A program made the translations under genes and the position numbers. The notes below the pieces were generated by a model. That model ran no database searches, had not been told where the DNA came from, and saw only the letters and a list, made by a program, of their open reading frames with translations. From a virus: a DNA stretch of 31,548 bases. The stretch covers positions 1 through 31,548 of IMG/VR virus record IMGVR_UViG_3300020195_000116; one strand, 5' to 3'. This document shows positions 1 to 31,548 of the stretch, in pieces (the stretch's first letter is position 1; every line of letters starts with the position of its first letter).

Positions 1-570
1 AACAACCGTTATTGAGGCTAAGGTAGTATTGCTGCTGTTGGTGTTTTGGATTTTGGTTTTGGGAGTAGTAGTATTAATAGGGGTTAAATTTGGACCCTCT
101 AGATTTGTCTGGAGATCCGAAAAGGGTACCTCAAGGTTCGGGTGGGGGGTCAAATTTGGACCCTCTAGATTTTCGGAGGCATCAACGATCCCCATTTTTA
201 ACATCAAGTAATTGTAAGCATCTTCTCTCCCCGGTTTACTCGCTTGGGCCATTGTTAGTTCCCAAAACCAAGGAGTGAGTTTGAAGATCGCGCCATGTTT
301 ATTAGAGGAAGGATTGGATTCGTAAATAAGGTTTAGTTTCTTTAAATGACGCAAATCTCTCTTAATGCTAGTTTTTGAGGCGCCGGTGTTAACGGCCATT
401 GTCTCATTGGCCATAGGCCGTTTTAAGGGAGAATTATGAAACTCTAAGATGTATTCAAGAGTGAAACGTTGCCCTCTCGAGATGATTCGATTGGCGCTTA
501 ATTGTCTGAAAAAGTTTGGAACTTGGGTGAAACCTAGACATAGTTTTTGCGTAGCTGTATTGTCGTTCAC
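1..570 (-). CDS. Replication initiator protein, N-terminal half (runs through the window start)
   Basis: Read on the minus strand from GTG at 568-570, this frame is open to base 1. The start is the first GTG/ATG after an in-frame TAA and has an AAAAAGGA ribosome site about 6 nt upstream. The first ~110 residues look like a winged-helix domain (S-K-T-S-I-K-R-D-L-R-H-L-K-K-L-N-L-I-Y), which fits DNA binding. From about residue 119 comes a low-complexity Asn/Thr-rich linker with three NLEGP motifs spaced 11 residues apart. If the genome is circular, base 1 continues in frame at 31462 and the gene ends at 30503, giving about 509 residues. A winged helix, an iteron-containing linker and a separate C-terminal domain is the plan of lambda O-type initiators. 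The identity as an initiator is inferred from this plan and the neighbouring SSB and ERF genes; a transcription regulator is the alternative. Confidence 0.72.
   Translation of the reverse strand, partial: MNDNTATQKLCLGFTQVPNFFRQLSANRIISRGQRFTLEYILEFHNSPLKRPMANETMAVNTGASKTSIKRDLRHLKKLNLIYESNPSSNKHGAIFKLTPWFWELTMAQASKPGREDAYNYLMLKMGIVDASENLEGPNLTPHPNLEVPFSDLQTNLEGPNLTPINTTTPKTKIQNTNSSNTTLASITVV
90..172. repeat. Iteron-like repeats inside the initiator gene (first copy)
   Basis: TTGGACCCTCTAGATTT occurs at 90-106 and again at 156-172, exactly 66 bp apart. A degenerate third copy (GGGTACCTCAAGGTT, 124-138) sits halfway, so the period is 33 bp. On the coding strand these encode the three NLEGP motifs. 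Iterons within the linker of the initiator gene are known from lambda O. Function as initiator binding sites is inferred. Confidence 0.6.
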
Positions 571-769
571 GTGAAGTCCTTTTTGCGCTCGAAGCTTCCC
601 TACTAATAAAAGAAAGAGCTTCGGGCCAATTTAAAAGATTAAATAATAGCTCGTCTAAATCTCTTATATTGGCCTAAACGAAATAGTCCAGACAAATCTT
701 TTTAAAAAAAATAATAAATCTTTCAAAAATCAACCAACAGATGTAAACCTTTTCCTACGGAGGTTCTAT
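571..769. promoter_or_regulatory. Divergent control region with an inverted-repeat operator candidate
   Basis: This 199-bp AT-rich gap separates the leftward initiator gene from the rightward repressor-like gene. GGGCCAATTTAA at 623-634 and TTATATTGGCCT at 664-675 form an inverted repeat with 11 of 12 matching arm positions after the outer base is ignored (one internal mismatch), centred at 649. A TATTAT box for leftward transcription lies between the arms (complement of 643-648), although I see no good -35 for it. Binding by the HTH protein at 770-994 would let it control the initiator promoter; that is inference from position. Confidence 0.45.
689..717 (+). promoter_or_regulatory. Candidate rightward promoter for the early genes
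   Basis: CAGACA (689-694) and TAATAA (712-717) are 17 bp apart, in front of the repressor/ERF operon. Both hexamers match the sigma70 consensus only partly, so this is a weak call. The A/T-rich spacer and the ribosome site ACGGAGG before the ATG at 770 fit a start of transcription near 724. Confidence 0.3.
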
Positions 770-994
770 ATGATTTTCGATTCAACAAAACTTAGAAGAC
801 ATTTGAAGATGCTAGGGATCAAGCATAAAGCGTTAGCAGACATGATAGGCGCCTCTGGCGCAATGCTCTCCAATTTCATGAGAGGGAAGCTTGCCTACCC
901 CCAAACCTATATTACAAAGATTGCGGAAGTACTCAACTTGGATCAAAAGGCCTTATTCTCAGGCAAGGTTGTTATCCTTAAAGGAAAAAAGTGA
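770..994 (+). CDS. Cro/CI-like helix-turn-helix regulator
   Basis: A 74-residue protein with an HTH_3-type fold. Residues 6-60 hold two helices (L-R-R-H-L-K-M-L-G and K-A-L-A-D-M-I-G), the turn A-S-G-A-M-L-S-N-F and a following I-T-K-I-A-E-V-L-N-L segment, as in Cro/CI and xenobiotic-response regulators. It has no dimerisation or cleavage domain, so it resembles Cro more than a full CI. It is the first rightward gene, starts with ATG behind ACGGAGG, and its stop overlaps the GTG of the next gene (GTGA). The inverted repeat at 623-675 is its likely operator. No integrase is present, so a role in a lysogenic switch is not established. Confidence 0.8.
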   Translation: MIFDSTKLRRHLKMLGIKHKALADMIGASGAMLSNFMRGKLAYPQTYITKIAEVLNLDQKALFSGKVVILKGKK

Positions 995-1632
995 AAAGGT
1001 CTGATTCGACTGTCGAACTTTCCAAGGCCCTCGCGGCCACATGGACGGAGCTCGAGGATCCCACCAAGTCTTCCTCTAATCCCCACTTTAAAAGCTCGTA
1101 CGCGGACTTGTCGCAAGTCCTCTTAGCAGTAAGACCTGTGTTGGCCAAAAACGGTCTATCGGTCGCACAAGGCCCTACACGGGTAGAGGGATGGCTAGTG
1201 CTGTCTACTCAGCTGCTCCATTCGTCAGGCGAGTATCTAGAGACAGAGACGCCCCTACTTATGGAGAGTGCTCGGGGGCAGACGATGCAAGCGTTGGGGT
1301 CAGCGATAACCTATGCTCGTCGCTATGCCCTCCAAGCGATCATCGGCTCCGCTGGGAAGGGAGACGACGACGACGGCAACAAGGCAACTCCTGCAAAAAG
1401 CATGCCGAAGATCATTGGCCCGCCGGTCGGCCTAAGCATGGACGACAAAATTAGAACTGAGTTCTCTCGGCTCATCAAGAGGGGGGAGAGTCAGCAAGAC
1501 CTCATCCAGGAGATCGACCAAGTCGTCCAGACTGCATCGCTCGGAGATAGGGGCGTCGACGATCCCAAACAGATCCTTGCCCTTCCAGAAGAATTAAAAG
1601 AGCTGGTTCTCAATCACCTAAAGGAAAAATAA
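991..1632 (+). CDS. erf: ERF-family single-strand annealing recombinase
   Basis: 213 residues. The ERF core is clear: N-P-H-F-K-S-S-Y-A-D-L near residues 30-40, V-R-P-V-L-A-K-N-G-L at 48-56, a T-Q-L-L-H-S-S-G-E stretch at 73-81, and the hallmark Q-A-L-G-S-A-I-T-Y-A-R-R-Y-A-L at 100-114 followed by the acidic D-D-D-D-G at 125-129. ERF proteins (P22 Erf, phage Sak-like annealing proteins) anneal complementary single strands during phage recombination and genome circularisation. The C-terminal ~80 residues are variable, as is usual. The GTG start overlaps the preceding stop, so the two genes are translationally coupled. The VRR-NUC nuclease at 2228 and the SSB at 29351 are plausible partners. 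Confidence 0.9.
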   Translation: MKRSDSTVELSKALAATWTELEDPTKSSSNPHFKSSYADLSQVLLAVRPVLAKNGLSVAQGPTRVEGWLVLSTQLLHSSGEYLETETPLLMESARGQTMQALGSAITYARRYALQAIIGSAGKGDDDDGNKATPAKSMPKIIGPPVGLSMDDKIRTEFSRLIKRGESQQDLIQEIDQVVQTASLGDRGVDDPKQILALPEELKELVLNHLKEK

Positions 1633-2227: not shown

Positions 2228-2629
2228 GTGAAAAAGTTGAGATTATCAGCGAAAAAGAGGTCGACAATGGATTGCCCTACCTTAGAAGTTTTCGTGGTCA
2301 AAGAGAAGACGATTGAGCGGGCGATCCTGGACTACTTAACCGCTCGCTCGATCTTCTGCTTTAAGGTCAACAACACTGGGATATGGGACCCTCATCGCAA
2401 AGTTTTCAGACTCGCAAAAAGCCAATACATCATCAAAGGCGTCGCTGATATCATCGGGATATTCGGGGGGAGGATGCTAGCGATAGAGGTAAAAACTCCC
2501 CAGCGAAGGAGGGCGCTATCGGAAGCTCAAAAGGCATTTCTGGACACCGTCCGTCTCCAAGGAGGAATCTCGATTCTCGCCACCAGCATCGAGGATGTAG
2601 CAAACGCGCTAGAAGAATACGAGGTTTAA
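2228..2629 (+). CDS. VRR-NUC domain nuclease
   Basis: 133 residues. A PD-(D/E)XK fold of the VRR-NUC type is indicated by G-V-A-D (D74), A-I-E-V-K (E87, K89) and the following S-E-A-Q-K-A-F-L (Q101), with A-I-L-D-Y-L near the N-terminus. VRR-NUC proteins in phages are structure-specific endonucleases that cut branched DNA. The GTG start at 2228 has AAGGAG 10 nt upstream; ATG at 2267 with AAGAGG at good spacing would give a protein 13 residues shorter and still complete. Its likely role is resolving recombination or packaging intermediates with the ERF protein. Confidence 0.85.
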   Translation: MKKLRLSAKKRSTMDCPTLEVFVVKEKTIERAILDYLTARSIFCFKVNNTGIWDPHRKVFRLAKSQYIIKGVADIIGIFGGRMLAIEVKTPQRRRALSEAQKAFLDTVRLQGGISILATSIEDVANALEEYEV

Positions 2630-2887: not shown

Positions 2888-3061
2888 ATGAGCTATAAAG
2901 ATTTATTAAACCCAGGCCAGAGAGGAATATGGCGAAAGAAAAAAAGGGCACCGACGTTCCAAGGAAATTCCATAAGTACAAAACAGAGTATGCTCAAATG
3001 CTTTATAATCATTTATGTGAAGGGAATTCTTTTAAATCATTTACTGATCTTGTCGATATAA
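2888..3061 (+). pseudogene. Possible relic of a large-terminase N-terminus, out of frame with terS
   Basis: A 57-codon frame overlaps the start of the small terminase gene. Its residues 8-20 read N-P-G-Q-R-G-I-W-R-K-K-K-R, close to residues 14-26 of the real large terminase downstream, H-P-G-Q-I-E-I-W-K-N-K-A-R. Beyond residue 20 the similarity stops. There is no convincing ribosome site. It could be a remnant of an older terL start left when terS was inserted or rearranged; a chance match cannot be excluded over so short a stretch. Confidence 0.3.
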
Positions 3062-3564
3062 CAGAGAAAGCACTGCATGGATGGAAGAAAAGATACCGTG
3101 ATTTTGGGGATGCTTATACCAATGCCAAAAGGGATTCCGGCGATAATTGGAACTCAAAGGTTTGTGTCGGAATGAAGTCGAAATACAAAACAGATTATGC
3201 CCAAATGATGCACAATCATCTCAAAGAAGGATTTTCATTTAAATCTTTTGCACGCAGAATAAACACTACTGCGAAAACTCTCCATCAGTGGAGGCATGAC
3301 CATCCCGACTTTAGCGATGCCTACGACCTTGCAAGGACAGCGACCGAAGGGTGGTGGGATGACTTAGGGAGAACTCACGCACTCTCCAATGCCAATGCGT
3401 GGAAAGCAAACGTTGAGATGCGGTTTGGTCACAGTGCTTATAGGCCTAGTGAGCCACCAGAAGATGATGAACGAGAGGGAGAATTAAGTGAACCAACGGA
3501 GCAAGTTCGGGAACCTCATTTCGTCTCATCCGGGGCAGATCGAGATATGGAAGAACAAAGCTAG
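2929..3564 (+). CDS. terS: Terminase small subunit with a duplicated DNA-binding domain
   Basis: 211 residues. Two tandem copies of a helix-turn-helix-type module are visible at about residues 16-74 and 85-143; both follow the pattern K-Y-K-T-(E/D)-Y-A-Q-M, then N-H-L, S-F-K-S-F, a T-x-K-x-L-H-x-W recognition-helix segment and a D-A-Y ending. The C-terminal part (A-W-K-A-N-V-E-M-R-F-G) resembles the end of other phage small terminases, and the last ~35 residues are acidic. Small terminases recognise the packaging site and hand the DNA to the large subunit. The start has AGAGGA just upstream, and the 3' end overlaps terL by 77 bp in another frame. The role is inferred from this overlap and the HTH content. 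Confidence 0.75.
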   Translation: MAKEKKGTDVPRKFHKYKTEYAQMLYNHLCEGNSFKSFTDLVDITEKALHGWKKRYRDFGDAYTNAKRDSGDNWNSKVCVGMKSKYKTDYAQMMHNHLKEGFSFKSFARRINTTAKTLHQWRHDHPDFSDAYDLARTATEGWWDDLGRTHALSNANAWKANVEMRFGHSAYRPSEPPEDDEREGELSEPTEQVREPHFVSSGADRDMEEQS

Positions 3565-12330: not shown

Positions 12331-13067
12331 TTAACTTAACGTGGGTCGACCTCAAGGCCTTTATGGCAGCAAGGAACTCTTCGCTGTCTGCATTTCTCTC
12401 TGCCGAAAGGTATATCCTTATAGCAACTGACGGCAAAATCCAGGCAACTTCCTTGCTCAAAACGGAGGGGGACATTGCTGACTATTTGGCCAATTACGCC
12501 TCGTTGGCAAATATAACCAGCAGTGATGCATCCGGTAGAGAAATAATCACTGGCGGTCTAGCTCCAAGAGGGTGGACATTCCAGTTCTTGTGCTTCGAGG
12601 TCGAAACGTCAAAGCTGGCAGCGATTATTTGCAAAGACTACAAGGGCGTAGACGTTAGCGGGCTCACTGCGAAGTTCTTCAACAGTTCCGATGTGGAGCT
12701 TGTTGCAGGGACTCAAGCAGAGCTCGACGCTAACTGCACGACTACCCAAGTAGATTTCTTCCCGACGTATGACTACATGATTATAGGCGGGGGGATTATA
12801 CAAAAGACTGTCCCCTCAACAGACATGCGAATATGGGTGGTGGTTGTCCCTGACATCGCTGCCGCTAGTGGTGGCTCAAAAGAACTGATCATCAACATGA
12901 ATATAGATTACTTTGATTCTAAGTATGAGTGGAAGCTAGACGGAAGGGTCGGGAAATTGCTGAAATATCACGCTTCTTTAAAGACCAATAAGATGAGGAT
13001 GATCGTCAAGCATGATACTGGCGTTAAGCATAAGGTCATGATTAATTACGAGTATTATAAGCTGTGA
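12327..13067 (+). CDS. Hypothetical structural protein, 246 residues
   Basis: I chose ATG at 12327 because it overlaps the upstream TGA and follows GGAGAGGA; a TTG at 12315 would add four residues. The start M-I-N-L-T-W-V-D-L-K is followed by mixed alpha/beta sequence, with G-G-G-I-I-Q-K-T-V-P-S near the middle and a basic C-terminus rich in Lys and Tyr. No enzymatic motif is seen. It sits between a beta-rich protein and the papain-like hydrolase, in a chain of overlapping stops and starts, so it is expressed with them. Confidence 0.6.
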   Translation: MINLTWVDLKAFMAARNSSLSAFLSAERYILIATDGKIQATSLLKTEGDIADYLANYASLANITSSDASGREIITGGLAPRGWTFQFLCFEVETSKLAAIICKDYKGVDVSGLTAKFFNSSDVELVAGTQAELDANCTTTQVDFFPTYDYMIIGGGIIQKTVPSTDMRIWVVVVPDIAAASGGSKELIINMNIDYFDSKYEWKLDGRVGKLLKYHASLKTNKMRMIVKHDTGVKHKVMINYEYYKL

Positions 13068-13618
13068 ATATAAGACGAATGCTGTTAGAAGCAGCACTCC
13101 CCATCACTAAGATGATCTCAAAAGTAGGGGTTACTCGGAGAATAGATGATGTGCAATACCTATTGCTAAAGAAAGATATTATGCCAGGGGATGTCTTCGT
13201 CACGAGCAAAAGATTCGAACTCTCCAGCATATTTATACCAGGAGAGTTCTCGCATGTAGCTCTTTACCTAGGGGAAGATATCCTTATAGAGGCGGTTGCA
13301 AAGGGTGTGGCGTATACATCTCTGCCTTACTTTTGTTTCTCCAAGGACCGCATTGCTGTAATGAGACCGCTGTTTATCACAGGTCAAGACAGGGTCAAGA
13401 TTGAGTCTAAGAAATATATAGGTATCCCTTATGATTTCTACTTTGAGAAAACAGTGGAAGCTTTCTACTGCTCAGAGCTGGTGTACACTATACTGAAACA
13501 CTTCAACGGGTTCGAACAGTTTACTTTGAGGAAAACGCTCGGGGTAGAAACTGTGACTCCTGATGATTTTTTTAGAGCTAAAAAATACTTTTCGCTTGTA
13601 ACAGACACGGGGGCCTAA
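13064..13618 (+). CDS. Papain-like (YiiX/C92-type, permuted NlpC/P60 superfamily) hydrolase
   Basis: 184 residues. Features of permuted papain-like enzymes are in order: M-P-G-D-V-F-V-T at 40-47, F-S-H-V-A-L-Y-L-G with His64 at 62-70, I-E-A at 76-78, I-G-I-P-Y-D-F-Y-F at 119-127 and F-Y-C-S-E-L-V with the probable nucleophile Cys136 at 135-139. Relatives act as amidases or peptidases on peptidoglycan or as lipid-modifying thiol hydrolases. No signal peptide is evident. The GTG start overlaps the preceding stop (GTGA). Its place among virion genes, far from the lysis cassette, suggests a virion-borne enzyme used at DNA entry, but a role in assembly is possible. Confidence 0.78.
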   Translation: MNIRRMLLEAALPITKMISKVGVTRRIDDVQYLLLKKDIMPGDVFVTSKRFELSSIFIPGEFSHVALYLGEDILIEAVAKGVAYTSLPYFCFSKDRIAVMRPLFITGQDRVKIESKKYIGIPYDFYFEKTVEAFYCSELVYTILKHFNGFEQFTLRKTLGVETVTPDDFFRAKKYFSLVTDTGA

Positions 13619-17057: not shown

Positions 17058-19961
17058 ATGGCAAACATAGACTTAAACGTAGAGATAAAAGGCGGGAAAG
17101 CTGTTTCCGCCGAGTTGACAAATATTCAGAAGGTCACGGAGAAAACACAGGGTGCTTTCAAAGGGCTTACTAATAGTGTTTCAGACCTCCTCTCTAGCTT
17201 CAACCCTCTCATAGTTGCTGCGGGCGCCTTTGCTGCGGCCTTTTCAGTATCAAAAGTTGTGGATGCTGCTGTCGAGCAAGAGAACGCTATCAACCGACTT
17301 AATTCTGCTTTAAGGCTAGCTGGAGACTTCTCGCTGAAGGCATCGGAAGATTTCCAAGCATTCGCGTCTGAAATTCAAAACACCTCTAGTTTTAGCGATG
17401 ATGCCGCCCTTGGGCTTGTGTCTTTGGCAAAGTCCCTTGGGATAAGTAACGAGCAAACGAAGATCGCAGTTCAAGCGGCAGTCAACCTTCAAGAGGCAAC
17501 AGGGCTCGCCGCGGAAGTAGGCATCAAGAAGTTAGCTGCCACATTGCTAGGCGCCGCTGGATCGGCAAAGAAGTTTGCTCCAGAGATAGCGAACTTAACA
17601 CAAGAGCAGTTAAAAGCAGGCGCAGCGATAGAGATTATAGACAAAAAGTTTGCCGGCTTTGCTCAGGCAACTCTCCAAACATTTTCAGGGGCCACTAATC
17701 AGGCCAAAGGAGCGTTTGGGGATCTTTTAGAAGAATTAGGGTTTTTGATTATTAAAAACCCCGCCCTTATCGCCGCATTTAATGAAGCAAAAAATGTCAT
17801 AGTACTTCTCTCGTCAGCGGTAGCAGCGAACAGAGAGGGCATCATCTCCTTCACCACCGACGGAGTAATCTTTTTAATTAAGCAATTGAGTTCATTGGTG
17901 CGCGGGACTCAACTTTTCACGACTGCGTTTAAGGCGGTAGAAGTAGTTCTTCAATTAGCAGCGTCCTCTTTGTCCTCCATCACCGGCAGTTTCTTTTCAT
18001 TCGTGGCCGGATTAATCCGGGGGTCTGCCGATATTAAAGACGCGCTGACCTCGGCGCTTAACTTCGTCACCCGCTCATTTGGCGTCTTCGCTCAAGTCGC
18101 CGTAAGCTCCCTTAGGGATGTCGTAGCAGGGTTTGGGAAACTAGCTGCGCTCTCCGGAGACAATGCCATTACAACGAATCTAACCGCGGCCACAAAGGGG
18201 TTAGATAGGCTTGTTGTTTCAACGGAAAAAGCAGTAGGCGCGTTCAAGCAAATAAGCAACAGCTCGGACGGGATACGGAAAGTAGCAACGAGCTACGATG
18301 GTCTCGCCGCAGCTAGTAATAAATTTTCTAACGCTCAAGTTGTGGCAGCTGTAGAAGCTGCTTCATCTATAAAGAACATTAATAAGCAAATAGACCAATA
18401 TGCTAACAAGCTTAGTGTAGGGCTCGTTGGCTCGATTCAAGCGGTACAGTCGGCGCAGAAGAAGCAGACAGATGATGCGAAAAAAGGACTCGGCAATGCC
18501 GCAAAAGGCGCCGAAGAGTTTGGCGATTCACTCGCCGAAGCAGCTAAAAAGGGCAACGAATCTAGCATTCGCATAACAAGGTTCCTTAACGAAATCAGAG
18601 TTGAGCTCTTTAGCATAGGCGCCGCGGCAGCTGCCGATCCCTTCAAAGGAATCTTAATAGGAGTTACCCGGCTAGAAGACAAGATCAAGGGCCTTGTTGA
18701 TAGCAACGAGTTTAAAGATTTAACCTCCTCTAAGCAAGTAGAGATAAAGCTTAAGTTAGAGGCAGAGCTAGACGCCGCTAAGCTGGCAAACTTCGTAGGG
18801 ATTGGCGCCGGGTTTGCGGCAAGCATCTCTAACGGTGCTGCCGGCGCTTCTAAGATCTTAGTAGAAGGCGCCGCCTTCGCTATAGATAGTTTCGCTCCAG
18901 GGGTAGGGCAGGCAGTTAAACCCCTCCTAGACGTCTTCCTAAAAGGCAAAGACGCTGTCAAAGCAATGGTCACCGATTTTGTCAAGGCCCTACCATCGCT
19001 ACTCGTCGCCTTGGTCCAAGGCGCCATTGCATTTGTGGAGACGCTCATCACACAATTGCCCTCTCTCATAACAAATTTGCTCCAGGCCATCCCTACCATC
19101 ATAAAATCGGTAGTTGATGCCGTCCCATCCATAATAAATTCAATCATCGTAGCTATACCCCTTATAATAAAATCAGTGGTAGAGAGTATACCCCTGATAA
19201 TAAATTCGATCATCGATGCCATCCCATCCATAATAAATTCAGTCATAGTGGCCATACCATTCATAATAAATACCATTGTCAGTGCCTTGCCTGACATCCT
19301 AAATACTATAATCTCCGGGATCCCCTCCATTATTGACCGCATAATCATAGCAATCCCTACCATCGTAAGGTCTGTAATCGAAGGCATTCCATCTATTATA
19401 AAAGCTGTAATTGAGGCCATACCTAACATCATAGGAACTTTAATTACTCTCCTCCCACAGATTATATTTGAGCTAATAAAAATAGCCCCAACGCTGGTAA
19501 TAGAGATCCTAAAGGGATTAGGGCAAGGGATTATTGACGCGATTAAAAGTGCTTTCTCTGGTATCGGCGATGGCGTCGGCAACTTCGTTACGGGAAAGGA
19601 ATCGTCTACCGGCATTCCTATTATTGGACCAATCATAGATTTAGTTGGTAGTGCCATATCAGGTATTGGAGATTTTCTTGGGTTTGCTACAGGGGGGCTT
19701 GTGCCTCAAGGCTTCACCGGAGACACGTTCCCCGCAAAGCTTACCTCTGGAGAGTTTGTAATAGATAATAGCCTGACGCCTAAGTTAGAGCAGTTCCTGG
19801 CCAATCCCGGGCAAGGACAAGGGCAAACAAACCAAATCTTGACCCAACTTTTAGAAGCGATGAATCGGCCTCAGATGGTTGACGCCTCTGTACAGTTTAA
19901 CCAAAATACTCTCGCGGATATAATCCTTACTCTGAACAGGACCAATAGGAGGTTGTCGTGA
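17058..19961 (+). CDS. Tail tape measure protein
   Basis: 967 residues. The N-terminal half is helical and Ala-rich with a hydrophobic segment (about residues 50-70). Residues 677-819 hold thirteen 11-residue hydrophobic repeats of the form (A/G)-I-P-x-I-I-x-S-(V/I)-(V/I)-x. The C-terminal part has the usual G-G-L-V-P-Q-G-F-T-G-D-T and P-A-K-L-T-S-G-E-F-V-I-D-N of tape measures, followed by G-Q-G-Q. At the customary 0.15 nm per residue, the tail would be about 145 nm long. The ATG has AAGGAA upstream. It is the longest gene in the window and follows the chaperone pair as expected. Confidence 0.92.
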   Translation: MANIDLNVEIKGGKAVSAELTNIQKVTEKTQGAFKGLTNSVSDLLSSFNPLIVAAGAFAAAFSVSKVVDAAVEQENAINRLNSALRLAGDFSLKASEDFQAFASEIQNTSSFSDDAALGLVSLAKSLGISNEQTKIAVQAAVNLQEATGLAAEVGIKKLAATLLGAAGSAKKFAPEIANLTQEQLKAGAAIEIIDKKFAGFAQATLQTFSGATNQAKGAFGDLLEELGFLIIKNPALIAAFNEAKNVIVLLSSAVAANREGIISFTTDGVIFLIKQLSSLVRGTQLFTTAFKAVEVVLQLAASSLSSITGSFFSFVAGLIRGSADIKDALTSALNFVTRSFGVFAQVAVSSLRDVVAGFGKLAALSGDNAITTNLTAATKGLDRLVVSTEKAVGAFKQISNSSDGIRKVATSYDGLAAASNKFSNAQVVAAVEAASSIKNINKQIDQYANKLSVGLVGSIQAVQSAQKKQTDDAKKGLGNAAKGAEEFGDSLAEAAKKGNESSIRITRFLNEIRVELFSIGAAAAADPFKGILIGVTRLEDKIKGLVDSNEFKDLTSSKQVEIKLKLEAELDAAKLANFVGIGAGFAASISNGAAGASKILVEGAAFAIDSFAPGVGQAVKPLLDVFLKGKDAVKAMVTDFVKALPSLLVALVQGAIAFVETLITQLPSLITNLLQAIPTIIKSVVDAVPSIINSIIVAIPLIIKSVVESIPLIINSIIDAIPSIINSVIVAIPFIINTIVSALPDILNTIISGIPSIIDRIIIAIPTIVRSVIEGIPSIIKAVIEAIPNIIGTLITLLPQIIFELIKIAPTLVIEILKGLGQGIIDAIKSAFSGIGDGVGNFVTGKESSTGIPIIGPIIDLVGSAISGIGDFLGFATGGLVPQGFTGDTFPAKLTSGEFVIDNSLTPKLEQFLANPGQGQGQTNQILTQLLEAMNRPQMVDASVQFNQNTLADIILTLNRTNRRLS
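19086..19514. repeat. Thirteen tandem 33-bp (11-codon) repeats in the tape measure gene
   Basis: The encoded units run from A-I-P-T-I-I-K-S-V-V-D to I-A-P-T-L-V-I-E-I-L-K, each with Pro at position 3. Outer units are more diverged (L-L-P-Q, I-A-P-T) than inner ones. The DNA is AT-rich compared with the flanks. Such hydrophobic heptad-free repeats in tape measures probably form the membrane-inserting or DNA-channel segment; copy-number change would alter both segment and tail length. Confidence 0.85.
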
Positions 19962-29350: not shown

Positions 29351-29794
29351 CTAAAATGGGACGTCATCAAACATTTCTTTCTGCTGTGTAGAGATGCCCG
29401 GGGGTATATCGTAAAACCCGTGGGAGATTGGGCGCTCTTTGGCAGCAGCAGGAGGGAGCTCGGGCGTCTCTATGCTCTTCGCCTCGCCTTTGCCATCGCT
29501 CAGAAACTCAACCTTGTCCGCGATGATGGCGGTCCAATAAGTTTTCACTCCATTGGCCTCGCTAGTAGAATAGTCTATTCGTCCCTCGATCAATGCCTGC
29601 CGACCCTTGTAAAGATATTGCTTACAGCTTTCACCCGGCCTTCCGAAAACCTTAATTGTATGGAAGCTAGAAGATTCTTTGTCTTTAAACTTTTCGTTAG
29701 TCACCAATCTAAATGTGCATACGCCGTTACCCGATGCTGCGTACTTGAGCTCTGGATCGGTGACTAAGCGCCCGCAAAGCAGAATTTTATTCAT
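29351..29794 (-). CDS. ssb: Single-stranded DNA-binding protein
   Basis: 147 residues. The OB-fold starts M-N-K-I-L-L-C-G-R-L-V-T-D-P-E-L-K-Y, as in bacterial SSBs, with F-H-T-I-K-V-F-G-R-P-G-E and A-L-I-E-G-R-I-D-Y-S further on. The acidic tip D-D-V-P-F at 143-147 is the interaction tail used to recruit replication and repair partners. It coats single strands during phage replication and annealing by the ERF protein. It is the first gene of the leftward transcript from the promoter at 29834-29862. Confidence 0.94.
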   Translation of the reverse strand: MNKILLCGRLVTDPELKYAASGNGVCTFRLVTNEKFKDKESSSFHTIKVFGRPGESCKQYLYKGRQALIEGRIDYSTSEANGVKTYWTAIIADKVEFLSDGKGEAKSIETPELPPAAAKERPISHGFYDIPPGISTQQKEMFDDVPF

Positions 29795-29883: not shown

Positions 29884-30105
29884 ATGGGAGTATTCACACA
29901 GAGAGAACAAACAGATCAAACTAAGGAGAGTCCCATGGCGTGCAAATGTGCCGAGCTGGCAGCGAAGTTAAGCTTAAGCAAGGGGCAGCTCATGACAATG
30001 CTAACGAATCCTGAGCTCATGAATCAAGCGAAGATCGCTAATATCATGGACCAGCTGGCGCAGTTAGAGGCAGAGCTGTTAGCAGCTGCTGAGCATGGAG
30101 AGTGA
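29884..30105 (+). CDS. Hypothetical helical protein, 73 (or 56) residues
   Basis: Two starts are possible, each with a good ribosome site: ATG 29884 (AGGAG at 6 nt) and the in-frame ATG 29935 (AAGGAG at 6 nt). The short form begins M-A-C-K-C-A-E-L. The helical remainder (A-A-K-L-S-L-S-K-G-Q-L-M-T-M-L and I-M-D-Q-L-A-Q-L-E-A-E-L-L) suits a short coiled coil. The C-x-C pair suggests possible metal or thiol chemistry. It is the first of two rightward genes at the edge of the replication region. Confidence 0.6.
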   Translation: MGVFTQREQTDQTKESPMACKCAELAAKLSLSKGQLMTMLTNPELMNQAKIANIMDQLAQLEAELLAAAEHGE

Positions 30106-30302
30106 AGGCGGCGGTAGAGCTGAGAGAGAGGAGCAAAGAGCTGGAGTTGAGAGTCCGGAGCGTGAATAACCTCATCTGTGATCTTAGACAGATGCATCTT
30201 GAGGCGACGAAGAAGATCGAAGCGGAGCTCATCGCGCTTGAAGCGGAAATTCATGATCACCTTCGCTCGGCCAACCCCGTAATGGTCAAAGGGGTTAGAT
30301 AG
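30102..30302 (+). CDS. Coiled-coil protein, 66 residues, whose end forms the first repeat of the 34-bp array
   Basis: GTG start overlaps the preceding stop (GTGA). Nearly the whole protein is a charged helix (R-E-R-S-K-E-L-E-L-R-V-R-S-V, K-K-I-E-A-E-L-I-A-L-E-A-E-I), so a coiled coil is expected. Its C-terminal N-P-V-M-V-K-G-V-R is encoded by the degenerate first unit of the array that follows. The function is unknown. Confidence 0.6.
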   Translation: MKAAVELRERSKELELRVRSVNNLICDLRQMHLEATKKIEAELIALEAEIHDHLRSANPVMVKGVR

Positions 30303-30451
30303 TCCAACCCCTCTAATGGTTAAAGGGGTTAGATGGTCCAACCCCTCTAATGGTTAAAGGGGTTAGATGGTCCAACCCCTCTAATGGTTAAAGGGGTTAG
30401 ATGGTCCAACCCCTCTAATGGTTAAAGGGGTTAGATGGTCCAACCCCTCTA
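30271..30451. repeat. 34-bp tandem repeat array between convergent genes
   Basis: Four identical units of 34 bp (30304-30337, 30338-30371, 30372-30405, 30406-30439) are flanked by a 33-bp degenerate unit (30271-30303, partly coding) and a 12-bp partial unit (30440-30451). Each unit can pair AGGGGTT with AACCCCT, a 7-bp stem. On the minus strand each contains TTGGACCATCTA, the core of the repeats in the initiator gene. There are no unique spacers, so it is not a CRISPR array. The function as iterons is inferred; a set of terminators for the two convergent genes is an alternative. The flank 30452-30502 holds a T-rich segment and no gene. Confidence 0.9.
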
Positions 30452-30502
30452 GTTAGCGTTTAAATGCGCTTTTTAAGGGGGAAAACTAGGGATGTGTAGA
30501 AT

Positions 30503-31548
30503 TTAGTAGGCCTCCATGCCACATGCCGCAAACTCCTCCTGAGCACGTTCTCGCTGATCTCGTTCTTCACCACTCAACTCATCATCAGGGATGTCCATGT
30601 CGAGGGCCCTTATCGGTCTCGCTTTGGCAGACGTCCCGAAAATCTTCTGACCTAGCTCTGCGTCGGCCCTGGCCTCACTGTCCACTTCGCCCTCGCTTTT
30701 TAAATCTGGGAGGACGTCTTGGGAAAGTGCGAAGGCCATGAGGTTTTTCTTCAACGCTTCGTAGGTGAAGCCGGAGCCGTTTGCTGAGGGGTTGTAGCTC
30801 TCAATCGGTCTTTTCCGTATGATAAAAGTGAGGTCTTCCCCCATCACTTGCTCCATATGGCGGTTGTCGACCTTCCGGTGCTTCTTAAAGTAGCCCTCCA
30901 TTTGGAGGAAGACTTCTTTTGCCCAGACGGTCTTTTGTGCTTTGGCCTCTTCCCGCTCAACTTGGATGGCCCAGTCAGCTCTCATCATTGAGATGAGCTT
31001 CTCAATGTCGCGAATATTCTTTAGCGCCTTTAAATGCTCAATCTTTTTCTTCATAAAGGGTCGATCGAACCCTGCAACAAGCCTTTCTTGCTCAGGTAGG
31101 GAGAATCTCGTTAGCCATTGGACTGCTCCAACAGAGTACCCGTCTTCTCTAAAGTTTTCTAAAACAGGAAAAGCAGCAGTCTTCGGAAGTTTCTCAACAA
31201 CCGTTATTGAGGCTAAGGTAGTATTGCTGCTGTTGGTGTTTTGGATTTTGGTTTTGGGAGTAGTAGTATTAATAGGGGTTAAATTTGGACCCTCTAGATT
31301 TGTCTGGAGATCCGAAAAGGGTCCCTCAAGGTTCGGGTGGGGGGTCAAATTTGGACCCTCTAGATTTTCGGAGGCATCAACGATCCCCATTTTTGACATC
31401 AAGTAATCGTCTTCTCTGAAATTTTCTAAAACAGGAAAAGCAGCAGTCTTCGGAAGTTTCTCAACAACCGTTATTGAGGCTAAGGTAGTATTGCTGCTGT
31501 TGGTGTTTTGGATTTTGGTTTTGGGAGTAGTAGTATTAATAGGGGTTA
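30503..31548 (-). CDS. Replication initiator protein, linker and C-terminal half (continues past the window end)
   Basis: The frame is open from 31548 down to TAA at 30503-30505; there is no stop before the window end, so ATG/TTG at 31402-31397 is probably internal. With the N-terminal half (570-1) it would make about 509 residues if the molecule is circular. The linker carries the N-L-E-G-P repeats. The C-terminal part (L-E-N-F-R-E-D-G-Y, W-L-T-R-F-S-L-P-E-Q-E-R-L-V-A-G-F) is helical and charged, with an acidic end (D-I-P-D-D-E-L-S-G-E-E-R-D) that could contact a helicase or helicase loader, as lambda O's C-terminal domain contacts P. This partner is inference. Confidence 0.75.
   Translation of the reverse strand, partial: TPINTTTPKTKIQNTNSSNTTLASITVVEKLPKTAAFPVLENFREDDYLMSKMGIVDASENLEGPNLTPHPNLEGPFSDLQTNLEGPNLTPINTTTPKTKIQNTNSSNTTLASITVVEKLPKTAAFPVLENFREDGYSVGAVQWLTRFSLPEQERLVAGFDRPFMKKKIEHLKALKNIRDIEKLISMMRADWAIQVEREEAKAQKTVWAKEVFLQMEGYFKKHRKVDNRHMEQVMGEDLTFIIRKRPIESYNPSANGSGFTYEALKKNLMAFALSQDVLPDLKSEGEVDSEARADAELGQKIFGTSAKARPIRALDMDIPDDELSGEERDQRERAQEEFAACGMEAY
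31143..31462. repeat. 267-bp in-frame tandem duplication in the initiator gene
   Basis: Bases 31196-31407 match 1-212 with two substitutions (31323 C vs 128 A; 31395 G vs 200 A), and the block 31141-31195 reappears as 31408-31462 with two substitutions. The period is 267 bp, or 89 codons. The 8-mer TCTTCTCT occurs at 31143-31150, 31410-31417 and 221-228, marking the recombination edges. The substitutions argue for a real, aged duplication rather than an assembly stutter. Confidence 0.8.
31285..31367. repeat. Iteron-like repeats inside the initiator gene (second copy)
   Basis: TTGGACCCTCTAGATTT recurs at 31285-31301 and 31351-31367, with the degenerate copy between at 31319-31333 (GGGTCCCTCAAGGTT). 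This is the same 33-bp-spaced set as at 90-172, carried along by the 267-bp duplication, so a circular genome would contain six such sites in the gene. Confidence 0.6.
31463..31548. repeat. Terminal direct repeat, identical to bases 1-86
   Basis: The last 86 bases equal the first 86 exactly. The simplest reading is the overlap left when an assembler closes a circular or circularly permuted molecule, supported by the initiator frame continuing across the join. A true short terminal redundancy is possible. The overlap lies inside the 267-bp repeat, so the assembler may have broken here because of that repeat. Confidence 0.75.

Follow-up and report, generated by a model that had tools for sequence, protein, structure and literature searches.

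The window covers a virus record 31,548 bases in length, apparently a whole circular or terminally redundant phage genome. It encodes the structural genes of a phage (terminase, portal-like, capsid, tape measure and amidase), and its ends overlap, the first 86 bp being the same as the last 86 bp. Once the ends are joined, a frame of 509 codons runs uninterrupted along the minus strand (570 to 1/31462 to 30503). We call this gene the initiator because of weak family matches of its N-terminal part and because of the gene organization. The N-terminal part matches phrog_678, annotated as "replication initiation O-like", at E=5e-4 only, a weak match, and the phage replication-initiation families phrog_186 and phrog_1032 more weakly still. 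Family searches with the C-terminal part and a PDB search with the initiator returned no matches, and the AlphaFold model of the N-terminal part, with a pLDDT of 34, was too poor to use.

Other genes of replication and recombination are listed in Table 1 together with the repeats described below. No phage helicase or loader was identified in the record, we noted no partition genes in the scanned ORFs, and the GC skew of the genome gives no clear origin signal.

The joined initiator frame includes a tandem duplication of 267 bp, covering the linker with its repeats (31141-31548 plus 1-215) and falling exactly at the record ends. Its copies differ at a few bases, and the stretch 1-215 shares 98.6% identity with 31196-31410. 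Either the duplication is genuine and comprises at least two units, or variants were joined into a loop during assembly.

Table 1. Coordinates of the genes, repeats and flanking features of the initiator region.
Feature	Position	Strand	Remarks
Initiator, N-terminal part: HTH-like domain and NLEGP linker	1..570	-	phrog_678, phrog_186, phrog_1032, weak
Initiator, second linker copy and C-terminal part	30503..31462	-	continues the frame of 570..1 over the joined ends
Single-strand binding protein (SSB) gene	29351..29794	-	Pfam SSB E=2e-25; phrog_44
Erf-like single-strand annealing protein gene	991..1632	+	Pfam ERF E=1e-22; phrog_2324
Hjc/VRR-NUC nuclease, Holliday-junction-resolvase-like	2228..2629	+	Pfam Hjc E=2e-4; phrog_93 endonuclease E=3e-18
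AT-rich intergenic region flanked by initiator and HTH regulator	600..770		one of the genome's least stable stretches
Tandem array, 34-bp unit, 5.4 units	30271..30451		TRF; minus strand (TTAGAGGGGTTGGA CCA TCTAACCCCTTTAA CCA)n
Array core, degenerate first copy TTGGACTATCTA	30296..30307	-	1 mismatch
Array core TTGGACCATCTA	30330..30341	-	exact
Array core TTGGACCATCTA	30364..30375	-	exact
Array core TTGGACCATCTA	30398..30409	-	exact
Array core TTGGACCATCTA	30432..30443	-	exact
In-gene dyad AAATTTGGA-CCC-TCTAGATTT	31281..31301	+	21-mer; axis as in array core
Degenerate middle in-gene copy	31319..31333	-	NLEGP kept, 4/5 codons synonymously changed, dyad gone
Second in-gene dyad	31347..31367	+	identical 21-mer; axis as in array core
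In-gene dyad, duplicate block at opposite record end	86..106	+	record-end overlap
In-gene dyad, duplicate block at opposite record end	152..172	+	record-end overlap

The 34-bp array and the in-gene dyads

The array begins within the last codons of a small ORF (30102-30302, plus strand), which lies on the opposite strand to the initiator and converges with it, and ends ~50 bp past the initiator stop codon, on its 3' side. Stop codons are present in all six of its frames. TRF reports a period of 34, 5.4 copies and a 97% match; units 2-5 (30305-30440) do not differ from one another and are preceded by a degenerate first unit and followed by a partial sixth, in agreement with the four perfect 34-bp units outside the gene that were noted in a preliminary description of this DNA. 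On the minus strand the array has the regular mirror form (A-CCA-B-CCA)n, where arm A is TTAGAGGGGTTGGA and arm B, TCTAACCCCTTTAA, is the reverse complement of A except for two C-to-T changes, such that each 14-base arm is approximately the reverse complement of its neighbors. The core is positioned on the dyad axis. Because every arm can pair with both neighbors (with a CCA triloop, and G.T wobbles on the minus strand), single strands of the array fold strongly: the folding of both RNA strands far exceeds that of shuffled sequences (z -6.9 and -10.8), and a 31-base half-pair forms a DNA hairpin of 10-14 bp that is better paired on the minus strand.

The repeats within the initiator gene code for NLEGP three times per block, and two of these three copies carry the DNA site, each block thus having two dyads and one degenerate copy. 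The core TTGGACCCTCTA occurs on the plus strand at four positions (90, 156, 31285 and 31351), the block being present twice in the record because the record ends overlap. A 33-bp period had been described here; a degenerate copy does lie halfway, but the good copies are really 66 bp apart. The in-gene 21-mer is an imperfect dyad, the outer arms of which differ from those of the array (AAAT/ATTT versus GGGG/CCCC) yet are also self-complementary; the strong GGGG/CCCC arms are missing from the gene. As single-stranded DNA the 21-mer does not fold (0 kcal/mol), so that what the two sets share is probably not a hairpin but a site in duplex DNA for a dimer. The sets lie ~0.83 kb apart, in inverted orientation.

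Neither set has an AT-rich unwinding tract beside it. The AT content is 45-55% in the array and its flanks and 58-65% in the in-gene flank, the genome mean being 53% (sd 7). The strongest nearby AT-rich tract, between the initiator and the HTH regulator gene, lies ~430 bp or more beyond the in-gene repeats and is likely to be a promoter or an unwinding region.

Specificity of the shared core

The preliminary description had proposed that a DNA core is common to the initiator gene and the array, and we find stronger support for this than was first claimed, the core being centered on a dyad in both sets and unique in the genome. Throughout the record, exact matches to TTGGACCnTCTA are confined to the array and the initiator-gene repeats, and no other site in the 31.5 kb lies within two mismatches of TTGGACCATCTA; the random scatter that a genome search might have revealed is absent. 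Shuffled genomes contain 0.1 sites at no more than one mismatch, and 0.017 when the flanking dyad is included. By itself, the 12-mer is weak evidence for a common site: any 12-mer of the unit is matched at no more than one mismatch in 15 of 575 windows of 104 bp (~p=0.03 for the 12-mer alone), and 5.8% of dinucleotide-shuffled units do equally well. The symmetry axis of the core is identical in the two sets, and a 12-mer match limited to the dyad axis is found in only 1 of 356 windows. In statistics for core plus dyad, which were devised only once the match was known, none of 356 other genome windows reached the combination; core identity and flanking pairs together gave 15/17 for the gene block and 13 for the best of the 356 other windows, and in a set of 400 random palindromic arrays none equaled it under any of five settings for core plus flank. 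Gapped alignment of whole units between array and gene, on both strands, was not significant against dinucleotide shuffles and had several near-equal solutions, as palindromes would give.

Searches for related sequences

No relatives of the initiator were found in viral contigs, genome contigs, phages or plasmids, and none of the array in any collection searched. A near-identical (99.6%) partial contig of the same phage (IMGVR_UViG_3300015360_000280; L010/L045/L048), 18 kb in length, ends before the replication region. Searches with the capsid, portal and terminase also gave more distant relatives (L046-L053), those found by capsid or portal being fragments or matching neither the N-terminal part of the initiator nor phrog_678. 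Neither of these two was found in the records of L046, L047, L049-L053 and L039, by a protein search that had no positive control and thus constitutes weak evidence; the array was not found in the examined stretches of L049/L070 and L052/L071.

Pattern searches were likewise used. The sole viral contig to match the core-pair pattern (L009) has a repeat within coding sequence, which we judged to be a chance match. A generic palindrome pattern matched 16 loci, none with the core and most of them terminator-like hairpins or scattered matches, and a degenerate array pattern had zero matches in genome contigs. The matches to Rfam were sub-threshold, mostly to microRNA-type hairpins, and were rejected. 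One viral contig (L069:4917-5080) contains at least four closely spaced palindromes, ACCCCTGAACCCTCCTTCAGGGGT, unrelated by core.

Proposed function and comparison with known replication systems

The position and symmetry of the array suggest that it may be a second site for the initiator protein. We give a probability of about 0.5 to the reading that one dimeric protein, most likely the phage's own O-like initiator, has two sets of duplex sites, namely the array and the repeats in the gene, with the origin in the gene and the second set acting in regulation or as a fork block. The site would have imperfect dyad symmetry around the core TTGGA-CCN-TCTA. The in-gene set would be the loading origin, in the layout of lambda O and of SPP1 oriL, and the array would bind the initiator as a regular, 34-bp-phased complex. 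From there, the array might regulate initiation by titration or by pairing with the origin, as do P1 incA or F incC; alternatively, it might form a bound block that aids the switch from theta to recombination-dependent replication, as in the model for SPP1 oriR. We infer initiator binding to either set, the in-gene origin and the role of the array from the layout. In favor of the proposal, the array adjoins the initiator gene, the N-terminus of the initiator weakly resembles replication-initiation families, and the phage codes for an SSB, an Erf protein and a resolvase-like nuclease. Against it count the weakness of the 12-mer by itself, the post hoc statistics, the pull of the NLEGP peptide on the core, the missing GGGG/CCCC arms in the gene and the lack of an AT-rich tract at either set. 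The two-part origin or incompatibility-type site suggested in the preliminary description is likewise conjectural, given the missing AT-rich tracts and relatives. Should the initiator bind both sets, an origin and a second control site are packed into ~1.1 kb, and the role of the second array (copy control or fork block) could be addressed via one small non-coding array. A more speculative extension, which we consider improbable, is that the initiator reads the symmetric core with interchangeable self-complementary outer arms, and that the 34-bp-phased array is a built-in fork barrier that starts a theta-to-sigma switch, amounting to a compact, single-locus SPP1 scheme.

By analogy, oriL and oriR of the Bacillus phage SPP1 are the nearest studied precedent for the layout. 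The gp38 protein of SPP1 binds direct repeats at two places, oriL within gene 38 and the intergenic oriR; at oriR it is thought to stall forks and so to induce recombination-dependent replication, in which an annealing protein, an SSB and a resolvase take part (PMC6316719; PMC3485210). Like SPP1, the present phage has one repeat set within its initiator gene and another between genes (here at the sequence level only), and both phages encode a single-strand annealing protein, an SSB and an enzyme of the Holliday-junction-resolvase type. However, the SPP1 origins are 12-13 kb apart and each contains an AT-rich unwinding region, whereas the present sets are separated by less than 1 kb, inverted, and adjoined by no AT tract. 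Moreover, binding by gp38 has been reported for SPP1, while the sites described here are putative.

The iterons of lambda are 18-19 bp long and closely packed, with an AT-rich tract beside them, unlike the widely spaced good dyads of the present gene; lambda is not known to have a second array outside O. The likeness to O and ori-lambda and to the origins of Stx phages lies in the weak O-like N-terminal similarity and in the central position of the repeats within the initiator gene, and the variation between 4 and 6 iterons among relatives of these phages parallels the duplicated block here (PMC7466680).

For a purely regulatory second set, P1 incA and F incC would be the precedent. In both plasmids (repA/incA in P1, repE/incC in F) a second set of initiator-binding repeats lies past the 3' end of the initiator gene and acts on copy number. 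Their iterons are direct repeats of ~19-22 bp and the origin lies outside the initiator gene, whereas here the dyads alternate and the candidate origin belongs to a virus and lies within its initiator gene.

Alternative explanations

An unlikely but still substantial alternative is that the array is a true binding or regulatory element, for the initiator or for some other regulator of the phage, while the repeats in the gene merely encode a peptide linker, NLEGPNLTP, the codons of which resemble the core by chance. The regularity of the array and its non-coding nature agree with this as well. The preliminary description had held that the NLEGP codons cannot explain the match. For the core the codons are part of the explanation, since 20% of synonymous recodings of the peptide equal the real gene's match to the array core; for core plus dyad, only 0.5% of recodings equal the real gene and no other genome window does so, which argues against the linker as the sole explanation. 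On the other hand, the middle copy keeps NLEGP despite its synonymous changes (rough chance 0.005) and has lost the dyad; therefore the peptide too is probably under selection. Here the peptide is kept while the DNA core varies, a pattern that the preliminary description had listed as refuting for related phages, seen inside one gene and in the middle copy only, and one that weakens the earlier argument from the DNA. The initiator gene would present a case of a DNA site and a repeated peptide on the same bases.

We find it less probable again that the array is a multi-hairpin element without a replication role, serving convergent transcription units as a terminator, insulator or mRNA 3'-end stabilizer in the manner of REP/BIME elements. 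Those consist of alternating inverted units of ~34-40 bp between convergent genes, and the array, too, has an alternating inverted unit and lies between convergent ORFs; both of its RNA strands outfold shuffles, and other viral matches to the pattern AACCCCT/AGGGGTT mostly resemble ordinary terminator hairpins. However, REP/BIME elements are chromosomal families scattered through genomes, whereas the 34-bp unit was found at one place in one phage. The array hairpins have no T-run after them and no terminator-like site was called there, and the regularity of the units far exceeds what termination needs. Such an element would also leave the in-gene core unexplained, and the lack of folding of the in-gene 21-mer indicates that a hairpin is not the shared feature. 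A role of the array as a single-strand initiation or primosome/priming signal, through hairpins formed on exposed lagging-strand DNA, is very unlikely: the half-pair does give a triloop hairpin, better on the minus strand, but the in-gene sites have the core yet form no hairpins, and such signals are not typically multiplied in tandem.

Other features of the record

The tape-measure gene contains repeats with a 33/66-bp period (19130-19271) that code for repeated hydrophobic segments. The two HTH halves of a terminase-small-subunit-like protein (2929-3564), YKTEYAQMLYNHL and YKTDYAQMMHNHL, are similar, and their DNA is partly alike as well. Amid the structural genes, a Peptidase_C92 enzyme (YaeF/YiiX-type, NlpC/P60-like; Pfam E=2e-16) is encoded at 13064-13618.
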